Shown piece after piece: positions 1,059 to 36,415 of a DNA stretch of 43,964 nucleotides (positions are counted from its first letter, which is position 1; every line of letters starts with the position of its first letter). Source of the stretch: Bacteroidota bacterium (GTDB taxonomy: Bacteria; Bacteroidota; Rhodothermia; Rhodothermales; UBA10348); contig JAJCYQ010000005.1 of assembly GCA_029262835.1 (NCBI GenBank), positions 1 to 43,964 on the forward strand, written 5' to 3'. The position numbers and the translations under genes are program-made. The notes under the pieces were generated by a model. It saw only the letters and a list, made by a program, of their open reading frames with translations, had not been told where the DNA came from and ran no database searches.

Positions 1059-2356
1059 GTAAAAAACCCATCTGGTTCAAGGAAGGTGCCGCCGCCGACT
1101 GGGTCACCCGCTTCACGGTAGGCGATGATCCCTACTGGGACACCCTGCTGCTGTCCTACGACCTGCGCGCCTCGCGTGCCCACGCCCGCGGCCTGGCGAC
1201 GGCGGGCGTACTCTCGGAAGACGATTTCCGCACGCTGTCCGGTGCCATCGCCGAACTTGAGGAGCGCGATGACCTCGTCGTGGAGGCTGACGATGAAGAT
1301 TGCCATTCTCTCATTGAACGCCTGCTTACGGAGCTCGTAGGCGACGTAGGCCGGCGCATCCACACGGGAAGAAGCCGAAATGACCAGGTGCTGGCCGCAC
1401 TCCGTCTCTGGATGATGGATGCACTCGACGCGCTTACGCGTGGGCTCGGGGGCGTAGCGAACGAGTTGCTTGCCATGGCCGACGCCGGGCACGATCAGTT
1501 TCTTCCAGGTTACACCCACATGCAGCGGGCCATGCCTTCGACCGTTGCCGTCTGGGCGCACGGGTATGCTGAGAACCTGCTCTCCGACATGCGGGCCCTG
1601 ATCCACGCCCGCCAGCAGGTCAGCGCATCGCCCCTCGGCAGCGCCGCCGGATACGGCGTGCCGTACCTGGATATGGCCCGCCAGCAGGTGGCCGATGAAC
1701 TCGGTTTTGACCGCGTACAGACGAGCGTGGCGGCGGTGCAGCTCTCGCGCGGCAAGCTGGAACTGCACGCTGTGCACGCCCTGGTCCAGGCTGCCATGAC
1801 GCTCAACCGCGTCGCATCTGACCTCGTGCTCTACGCCAGCGCCGAGTACGGTTTCGTGACGCTCCCGCGAGAGTACACGACAGGCAGTAGTATCATGCCC
1901 CAGAAACGGAATCCGGACGTCCTCGAACTGGCACGGGCAGCGCTGCACCGCATTACGGCCGAAATGCAGGTGCTCATATCCGTGCCGTCGAACCTGTCAT
2001 CGGGCTACCACCGCGACCTGCAGCTGACCAAGGAAGCGGTTATGCGGGCGCTTTTGCGCGGCCAGGACCTGGTTTCCGCCATGCAGGCCGTCCTTCCCGG
2101 CGTGCAATTCAATACGGACCGCGTTGAGGCTGCGCGATCGGCCGATCTGTACGCCACGGCCCGCGCACTTGACCTCGTGCGGCAGGGCGTGCCCTTTCGG
2201 CAGGCGTATCAGCAGACAGCCGAGGATCCTGGGGCCTGGGAGGACTACCGCACCGCCGCGGCTTCGGACACGTACCAGTATGATGGTGCTCCGGGCCACA
2301 CCCGCTCCGCGGGCGCGGCCCTCCGCACCGAACTCGAGCACCTGAAAGCGTGTTGA
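1055..2356 (+). CDS. argH: Argininosuccinate lyase
   Basis: Cytosolic enzyme that splits argininosuccinate into arginine and fumarate, the last step of arginine synthesis. At 433 residues it is slightly shorter than the common length of about 460. Fumarase/aspartase-superfamily motifs are present: HTGRSRNDQV near residue 105, LPGYTHMQRAMPS near residue 150, and the signature loop TTGSSIMPQKRNPD near residue 280, whose serine pair holds the catalytic Ser. The ATG start overlaps the stop of the upstream deacetylase gene as ATGA, so the two are probably translationally coupled. No obvious terminator follows; the downstream gap holds repeats. Confidence 0.96.
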   Translation: MSKKPIWFKEGAAADWVTRFTVGDDPYWDTLLLSYDLRASRAHARGLATAGVLSEDDFRTLSGAIAELEERDDLVVEADDEDCHSLIERLLTELVGDVGRRIHTGRSRNDQVLAALRLWMMDALDALTRGLGGVANELLAMADAGHDQFLPGYTHMQRAMPSTVAVWAHGYAENLLSDMRALIHARQQVSASPLGSAAGYGVPYLDMARQQVADELGFDRVQTSVAAVQLSRGKLELHAVHALVQAAMTLNRVASDLVLYASAEYGFVTLPREYTTGSSIMPQKRNPDVLELARAALHRITAEMQVLISVPSNLSSGYHRDLQLTKEAVMRALLRGQDLVSAMQAVLPGVQFNTDRVEAARSADLYATARALDLVRQGVPFRQAYQQTAEDPGAWEDYRTAAASDTYQYDGAPGHTRSAGAALRTELEHLKAC

Positions 2357-2403
2357 AAGGCCCGTCGCGCACCCTTCTGCGGCGGTGCAATCCGGGTCCA
2401 TGC

Positions 2404-2697
2404 AAGATGAGCTTTTAAAACCTGGGCAGGTGACATGCGCAGCGCGGCGCGGCCAGTCAGCTGGTGACATGCGCGGCCCTGCCCGCCCAGGAAGCAAGCT
2501 GAGGTTTCAAAAAATGGGCAGGTGACATATGCGGTGCAGACCTGCCCGCCCAGGAAGCAAGCTGAGGTTTCAAAGTCTGAAGGATGAGCTTGCGTCTTGG
2601 GCTCGTGTGGCCCAGTATGGATCAACGAAATATGTTGGTGTTTTGAATTCGACAGGCTCAGCTTTCAACGGCCTGCCAGCCTGAAAGCCAGCCAGCC
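2404..2697. repeat. Cluster of short repeats in the 428-base gap after argH
   Basis: The gap 2357-2784 has no credible gene. A 34-base unit beginning CCTGCCCGCCCAGGAAGCAA occurs twice, identical, at 2478-2511 and 2541-2574 (63-base period). GGTGACATGCGC occurs at 2429-2440 and 2463-2474, with a variant at 2521-2534. Bases 2552-2602 match 36307-36357 in inverted orientation with about 4 mismatches in 51. Bases 2651-2693 resemble, inverted, part of 7684-7734. The gap therefore contains several members of a dispersed family. No inverted ends or transposase typical of an insertion sequence were seen. Confidence 0.85.
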
Positions 2698-2784
2698 AGC
2701 GCGCCCGCACGCCCGCCGCGCCCCAAACCATGACGTTCCTCGGATCGGGCCGATCTCAGCGCCCGCTGGTTCTTCAACGGGGTT

Positions 2785-6233: not shown

Positions 6234-7640
6234 ATGTTGTATGTACCTCTTGGTGGTGCGGTCGAGGAAATCGGGGCCAGTTGCCATTTCCTGTTCGTAG
6301 ATGGCACCGGCATTCTGCTCGATACGGGGTCGGACCCGGAGAAGGAGGGCCGCGCCAGCGTACCGGACTTCCAGCGCATCCATGACCGCCCCGACTGGCA
6401 CGTGGACCACATTGTGCTCTCGCACGCCCACCATGACCATATAGGGTCGCTGCCTGTTGCGGTGCGCGAGTTTCCGCACGCCCACGTGCACATGACAGCT
6501 CCTACCCGGAAGCTCCTGGACATTCTGCTCCCGGCCTCGGCGCGCCTGCAGCGCCGCCGCCAGATGGAAGGCGTGACGACGGAAGACCCGCTCTATACGG
6601 AGGATGACCTCGAAACGGGCTCCTACCTCTATCTGGTGCACGACTACGAGACCGACTTCGACCTGACGGGGCTCCGGGGCGGCTTTCCCGTGACGGGTCG
6701 CTTCTACGACGCCGGGCATATCCTGGGCTCGGCGGGCGTGCTCATCACGGCCGAAGACGATGGCCGGTCGCGCCGCATATTCTATACGGGCGATACGGGG
6801 CTCCAGTCGCAGACCATCATCCCGGGCGCCGTCTATCCGGAGGAGCCGGTAGATGTGTTGCTGTTGGAATCGACGCTGGGGGCCGATACGGAAGCGGAGA
6901 AATACCCCAGGCGCGGCGAAGAAAAGCGACTTGGCGCATCGGTAGCCCGCGTGTTGGCCAAAGGCGGTGTGGTGCTCATACCGGCCTTCTCGCTCGGCCG
7001 CAGCCAGGAAATGATTGCGCTCATGGATCAGTACAAGCGCCGGAAACTGATCCCGAACGACACGCCGATCTATACGGCGGGCATGATGCGGGCCATCTCC
7101 GATGCCTACGACAAGACGCGGTTTATTTCCCCGCGCCTGAATGAGGAATTTGAGGTGTATGGGGTTCCGCAGCGCCGCCTGCCACGGGGCAATTCGGGAC
7201 TCAACGAAGCGCTCCGAGAGCCGGGCATTTTCATTGTAGGCAGTGGTATGATGTTCGAGAACACGATCTCCAACCGGATTGCGCAGCGCATTGCATCGCA
7301 CGAGAAAAACGGCATTTTCCTGGTCGGGTTTGCCCGCGAGGAGTCACCAGCCGATCTGCTGCTGCGCGCCGCCGAAGAAGAGGGTCCCGGCGCGGAGGTG
7401 GTCATAAGCCGCACCCACGGCCCGCAACGCGTTCTGTGCGCGGTGGAACGTTTCCGGTTCAGCGGCCACAGCAACCGGCGTGACCTGCTCGAAATCGTAG
7501 ATGAACTGGAGCCTGAAACCATCGTGCTCCTGCACGGCGAGCAGGCGGCCCGTCAATGGATGCGGGACAACATCGGGTATTTCCACGCCGATATCGACGT
7601 CCGTATGCCCGAGAAGGGCGACGAAGTGTGGATTGACTGA
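6234..7640 (+). CDS. Metallo-beta-lactamase-fold beta-CASP RNA-processing exonuclease
   Basis: 468-residue protein of the MBL/beta-CASP/RMMBL type, related to ribonucleases and to CPSF-73. The zinc motif HAHHDHIG is near residue 65. Further elements are DAGHILGSAG (next His), the beta-CASP region with IPAFSLGRSQEM, and the C-terminal RMMBL block with RFSGHSNR and IVLLHGE. Expected role: metal-dependent RNA cleavage or processing in the cytoplasm. The start ATG lies 12 bases after the transaldolase stop. The 3' end faces the convergent repeat-protein gene at 7744. Confidence 0.9.
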   Translation: MLYVPLGGAVEEIGASCHFLFVDGTGILLDTGSDPEKEGRASVPDFQRIHDRPDWHVDHIVLSHAHHDHIGSLPVAVREFPHAHVHMTAPTRKLLDILLPASARLQRRRQMEGVTTEDPLYTEDDLETGSYLYLVHDYETDFDLTGLRGGFPVTGRFYDAGHILGSAGVLITAEDDGRSRRIFYTGDTGLQSQTIIPGAVYPEEPVDVLLLESTLGADTEAEKYPRRGEEKRLGASVARVLAKGGVVLIPAFSLGRSQEMIALMDQYKRRKLIPNDTPIYTAGMMRAISDAYDKTRFISPRLNEEFEVYGVPQRRLPRGNSGLNEALREPGIFIVGSGMMFENTISNRIAQRIASHEKNGIFLVGFAREESPADLLLRAAEEEGPGAEVVISRTHGPQRVLCAVERFRFSGHSNRRDLLEIVDELEPETIVLLHGEQAARQWMRDNIGYFHADIDVRMPEKGDEVWID

Positions 7641-7663
7641 ATCAGCGTGCGCCAGGATGCGGC

Positions 7664-7734
7664 GGCCGGCCGGCTTTGCGGCAGGCTGGCTTTTGGGCCG
7701 GCCAGTTTATCGGCCGTTGAAACCTGAGCCGGCG
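7664..7734. repeat. Intergenic hairpin and dispersed-repeat copy between convergent genes
   Basis: Between the beta-CASP gene and the convergent repeat-protein gene lie two GGCCGGCC palindromes (7664-7671 and 7696-7703) that can pair as an 8-base stem and might act as a two-way terminator. From 7684 the sequence, starting GGCTGGCTTTTGGGCC and containing GGCCGTTGAAACCTGAGCC, matches in inverted orientation the repeat at 2651-2693. It also shares the core TTGAAACCTGAGCC with 36336-36349. It is therefore assigned to the same dispersed family. Confidence 0.6.
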
Positions 7735-36246: not shown

Positions 36247-36415
36247 ACAGTTGAAAGATGAGCCTGTCGATCTCGAGAGAGTAACATATGCGGTCGCGAG
36301 GGGTGGGCCCAAGACGCAGGCTCATCCTTTAGACTTTGAAACCTGAGCCTGCTTCCTTGAGGTGGTCATCGAATCCGCGTATATGCCTTGACCAGTTTTT
36401 GAAAGCTCATCCTAC
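36247..36415. repeat. Dispersed-repeat cluster in the 450-base gap before the permeases
   Basis: The gap 36197-36646 has no credible gene. Bases 36307-36357 are an inverted copy of 2552-2602, about 4 mismatches in 51, with shared core GACTTTGAAACCT next to CTCATCCTT. Bases 36391-36415 (ACCAGTTTTTGAAAGCTCAT onward), read in reverse, match the GATGAGCTTT-AAAA-CTGG element at 2407-2426. Bases 36251-36293 hold AAGATGAGCCTG and ACATATGCGG, parts also seen in the 2.4-kb cluster. The remainder, 36416-36646, shows nothing recognisable. Confidence 0.8.

Follow-up and report, generated by a model that had tools for sequence, protein, structure and literature searches.

The gap between two convergent genes at positions 2404-2697 of the window (i.e., the whole stretch of 43,964 nucleotides analysed here) holds short repeats that recur in other gaps, raising the question of whether they form a mobile family, of what kind, and carried by what. 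An earlier note, made from the letters of the window alone, had taken them for a dispersed, modular, non-autonomous REP/MITE-like family, and the genome-wide copy search it had called for bore this out: BLAST of 2404-2697 against the whole 3.45 Mb genome located further copies in ~30 intergenic places on many contigs. A covariance model (R1), built from the alignment of 20 full copies, matched these full-length copies (~165 bp) as well as some ten truncated ones across the genome. The family, referred to as M, is built on the 16-bp near-palindromic word TTGAARSMTSAKSYTG, four of which are present per full element. Since this word occurs 63 times exactly and 112 times at one mismatch in the genome (vs. 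0 and 2 times, respectively, for the reversed control), the repeat cannot be put down to chance.

The layout of the element is fixed in all 20 full copies (i.e., M1> spacer A <M2 - GAC - M3> spacer B M4>), and alignment revealed near-constant spacing between the words. Read in the direction of the 36251 copy, M1 (TTGAAAGCTGAGCCTG) and spacer A (TCGAAATCGAAACAGTAACATATTGCG..GGGTGGGCCAAAGACG) are followed by the inverted M2 (CAGGCTCATCCTTCA), GAC, M3 (TTTGAAACCTGAGCCTG), spacer B (CTTCCTTGGCGGGCGTGTCTGCACCGCATATATCACCTG..) and M4. The centre of the word is itself near-palindromic (AGGCTSAGCCT), with the half-site variants AAGAT, AACCT, AAGCT and AGGCT found on either side of it. Length is 165-167 bp in 13 of the 20 full copies, while seven carry one of two recurrent insertions, the first adding 8-10 bp to spacer A and the second 15 bp ahead of M4. 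Because spacers A and B are inverted relatives, the whole element amounts to one long imperfect hairpin. Mean divergence among the copies in this genome is 25%, with the closest pairs being 87-90% identical, and lone words occur as well (e.g., at 7717-7732 of the window).

Within the window (Table 1), the inverted 51-base repeats at 2552-2602 and 36307-36357, noticed earlier with about four mismatches, indeed differ at exactly 4 of their 51 positions. All three sites lie between genes, as had been claimed, but only two of them are full M copies; 7664-7734, which was thought to share their modules, has one M word and lacks ACATATGCGG. The modules are not mixed in different orders either, the single order of the 20 copies also applying to 2404-2697, which merely carries an extra M-spacer unit. 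That region is real as a shared region, but was drawn too narrowly, with remnants of a second family on both of its outer sides. Short tandem runs (CCAGC, CGGGCAGC, GGACTACC) are present at 2680-2730 and in the flanks of many M copies, and another self-complementary repeat of ~110 bp adjoins some elements (in the left flank of the C59:22547 copy and near the C70 copy).

Table 1. Features of the M and X families at three intergenic sites of the window.
Feature	Position	Strand	Evidence
Species-specific DNA between two convergent genes, missing in congeners	2341..2784	.	444 bp vs. ~26 bp (G003) and 5 bp (G001)
Remnant X arm 2 (terminal inverted repeat and subterminal part)	2346..2390	-	nhmmer, X profile 115-159, E 8e-5 (flanks), 0.0014 (394 kb)
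Extra M word ending additional M-spacer B unit	2403..2418	-	One mismatch
Full M element, 175 bp variant (recurrent 10-bp insertion, spacer A)	2494..2668	-	Model R1, E 4e-34
M4 word	2495..2510	-	Exact
M3 word	2558..2573	-	Exact
M2 word, inverted	2577..2592	+	One mismatch
M1 word	2653..2668	-	Exact TTGAARSMTSAKSYTG
Remnant X arm 1	2753..2781	-	nhmmer, X profile 4-32, E 0.005 (flanks); X end pattern at 2 mismatches
Possible X arm 1 remnant beside lone M word, usual orientation	7638..7664	+	nhmmer, X profile 12-39, E 0.047, weak
Lone M word (GGCCGTTGAAACCTGAGCC)	7717..7732	+	One mismatch; E 0.14
Full M element, 165 bp	36251..36415	+	Model R1, E 1e-31
M words of 36251..36415	36251-36266 (+), 36317-36332 (-), 36336-36351 (+), 36399-36414 (+)		Pattern matches

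Across 41 genomes searched, the M family was found in all four genomes of the genus and in none of the 37 others of the family and order, and among the four it has expanded only in the present genome. One congener (G003) holds a single full copy plus half elements of 80 bp (M1-A-M2), another (G001) half elements of both kinds, and the third (G002) one diverged copy with the layout unchanged. In this last copy (L034, G002:C15), the words are of type CAGGATCATCCTG but their four-word layout is kept, which suggests that the arrangement predates the sequence of the words. Outside the genus, a degenerate central M pattern had no match in 84,980 species genomes and viral contigs, nor did BLAST against plasmids and phages return any, although these collections may be missing the nearest relatives. 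The idea that TGAGCCTGTCGAA-like words are widespread REPs was not supported by a strict extended M1 pattern run on the 84,980 genomes. As neither these collections nor Rfam yielded a known named repeat, and a literature search for the core words returned only unrelated papers, M is a real, apparently undescribed and genus-restricted family of the MITE/BIME kind, in line with the earlier suggestion of novelty.

Comparison with the congeners subsequently spoke to mobility. At four sites, the gap between the orthologous genes is short or missing in at least one congener: next to the 444 bp that separate the aligned coding ends at 2341-2784 of the window and the few bases at that place in G003 and G001, the site at C46:53413 spans 239 bp here vs. 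16 and 24 bp in congeners, that at C46:46744 spans 612 bp here vs. 64 bp in G001 (with 457 bp of other sequence in G003), and that at C50:17463 spans 351 bp here vs. 50 bp in G001. Moreover, flank comparison did not place any congener M copy at a position that M occupies in this genome, and the empty or near-empty sites together with this lack of shared positions indicate that M is a mobile repeat. Since the closest M copies (87-90% identical) are more alike than the aligned congener DNA is to this genome (mostly 76-86%), some of the copying looks later than the species split. The intergenic DNA at the empty sites has turned over and is too diverged to reveal insertion ends or target duplications, no clean empty site was found in the congeners for the second window copy (36251-36415), and the absence of M from congeners could partly be loss. 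Between L036 (G003:C41) and L064 (G000:C70), the neighbouring DNA is 93% identical, compared with ~79% elsewhere between these two species, and this suggests either exchange or unusual conservation.

A second family, X, which brackets many M copies, was overlooked in the earlier note and was exposed by flank comparison. X is a miniature element of 159 or 177 bp with inverted ends GAAGCGTGTTGAARAACC (terminal inverted repeats of ~18 bp) and often TA at its borders; its end matches number 57 here, 75 in G003, 24 in G001 and none in G002 (loci L075-L114 in G000, G001 and G003; e.g., L104:868-1015). In L103, L104 and L114, both arms share one departure from the consensus, as might result from copying of one arm onto the other or from selection on the hairpin. 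Inverted X-type arms also bracket a tmRNA gene (1032-1392, tag ANDYAFAMAA) at L112:924-1518 (G000:C90), with ~595 bp between the outer ends. No X-end pairs at IS distance (0.7-3 kb apart) were seen among the matches listed.

The position of M relative to X is regular. In all 12 flank matches with E <0.05, arm 1 adjoins the M1 end of the element and arm 2 its M4 end, none being reversed, for which the chance is ~2^-12 even under a two-way null; both arms are present at the first window site and at C31. Because the arms beside M match X positions ~1-50 and 93-159, M occupies the place of the X loop, and its constant orientation between the arms suggests that M probably spread, at least partly, as the cargo of a composite X-M-X. 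The simplest reading is such a composite, many copies of which have since lost their arms or carry decayed ones; alternatively, M could have inserted independently, and preferentially, into X. Against the composite reading, about half of the full M copies (including 36251-36415) show no detectable X arm. At one place in G003, a half M element is found where this genome has an X arm and no M. Conversely, an M element at C81 is interrupted by an X copy with TA at either border, a pattern consistent with TA duplication without being proof of it.

Our preferred reading, which we consider probable, is thus a MITE/BIME-like family of non-autonomous, palindromic repeats that are mobile, intergenic and at least partly the cargo of composite X-M-X units. 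M would be carried as the central part of such units, the ends of which would be recognised by a putative transposase provided in trans, perhaps of a TA-targeting IS type. The mosaic of M forms could then arise via X arm loss or decay, tandem growth (the extra M-B unit), halving (the 80-bp forms) and truncation to single words. As in MITEs, tens of dispersed, non-coding intergenic copies of 70-300 bp are found; terminal inverted repeats, also typical of MITEs, are absent from the core and were not general when sought in the flanks of each M copy, but are provided by the X arms in part of the copies. Alternatively, the X arms might be a general carrier whose hairpin loop holds varied cargo, be it the short loop of X itself, a palindrome of 18 bp, M, or perhaps the tmRNA gene at C90, with M being a second palindrome that uses X as a vehicle in a two-tier system without a RAYT, although we regard this extension as doubtful.

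The placement of M relative to genes bears on both its movement and its possible function. None of 28 M copies overlaps a predicted gene by more than ~50 bases, and 12 of them lie in convergent gaps (vs. 36 of 300 other gaps; p-value of 0.00013), whereas their orientations in tandem gaps (9 vs. 4) do not differ significantly. As the genes on the stretches around the copies were called by a simple codon-usage script, these overlap and gap counts are approximate. REPs have likewise been reported to favour convergent gene ends (PMC3733652), and we propose that such ends are favoured because insertions there are least harmful.

Enrichment between convergent genes would also be expected of a functional 3′-end RNA element (i.e., a terminator, mRNA stabiliser or processing hairpin) that is kept and copied because it is useful. 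The central stem is strongly conserved, and the predicted folds for which the earlier note had asked gave a long RNA hairpin (z-scores of -2.8 and -4.0), but a less clear one as DNA (-1.1 and -1.4). Nevertheless, the 20 copies contain no excess of compensatory change (covariation score of 0.109 vs. 0.113 for shuffled alignments), terminator scans revealed neither a pattern nor an enrichment at M elements, and Rfam, at gathering as well as permissive thresholds, had no match for M, its one hit in the window being a tRNA located elsewhere, so that a conserved RNA function is unsupported. Given, in addition, the non-significant orientation in tandem gaps and the fact that M is not kept at orthologous places, we judge such a role unlikely.

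It is decidedly unlikely, in turn, that M is a REPIN or BIME moved by a RAYT since lost from the genus, with the copies now decaying. Palindromic words in inverted pairs near gene ends, the average divergence of the copies, and the presence of RAYT-type genes elsewhere in the family and order would fit such a history. However, the link to a REP-associated tyrosine transposase was not supported: a search for PF01797, the gene family examined in looking for a transposase, identified none in the four genus genomes (94-99% complete; controls positive). Moreover, no GTAG tag is present in the M words or in the consensus of the 20 copies, and the ~90% identity of the closest copies argues against very ancient copying.

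That M was spread through segmental duplication or recombination of longer segments, instead of moving by itself, is very improbable as a general explanation: among 28 copies, there is one pair (at C29 and at the start of C99) with 416 bp of shared neighbouring DNA, and other copies have unrelated neighbours except for further short repeats. In that pair (L012:996-1681 and L008:837-1436), the flanking DNA is 97% identical and is duplicated together with an M element; the duplication stops just past M4, and one copy lacks M1 and most of spacer A.

By description, X resembles RUP and Correia/NEMIS, which are TA-flanked MITEs, in its ~18-bp terminal inverted repeats and the TA often at its borders, and X-M-X would correspond to a longer MITE with cargo; unlike in those families, no autonomous partner was found among the X-end matches listed, and the M core has no simple terminal inverted repeat. 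RUP and Correia/NEMIS are listed as MITEs (PMC3733652). With ERIC, RU-1 (127 bp) and RU-2 (168 bp) of enterobacteria, M shares its similar length, intergenic location, long imperfect palindrome, tens of copies and non-coding nature (PMC2759123, PMC10969869), as well as the fact that the present search (PF01797) turned up no transposase for it, but differs in its four related words, X arm framing, restriction to one genus and lack of a sequence match in the collections searched. REP, BIME and REPIN elements likewise consist of short palindromic words in inverted and tandem arrays, with a preference for convergent and unidirectional gaps (PMC3116915, PMC3733652), whereas M is a fixed four-word unit, lacks both the GTAG tag and a RAYT in its genus, and numbers its copies in the tens, not the hundreds. 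M also resembles the CGTC-tagged REPs, which are palindromic, intergenic, often inverted dimers and without a known dedicated transposase, and for which what copies such repeats is stated as an open question (PMC3733652). These are described as having a 5′ CGTC, a stem starting with AT and a CCA tail (PMC3733652), a combination that the 20-copy consensus of M lacks; GCGTC does follow several M words, yet it lies at the opposite end from that tag.

Mobile repeats of such a kind are thus already known in other bacteria, and what is unusual here is the four-word array and its regular seat between X arms. The finding contributes a clearly structured repeat family restricted to one lineage, together with a genome in which that family has multiplied, and the empty sites in congeners combined with the linkage to the X family and its terminal inverted repeats provide a concrete route for testing copying without a RAYT. 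Finally, M and X both reshape the DNA between convergent genes and can be a source of stop codons: at 2341-2784 of the window, where the two convergent genes overlap in G001, the inserted DNA gives the upstream gene a new stop codon (2354-2356).
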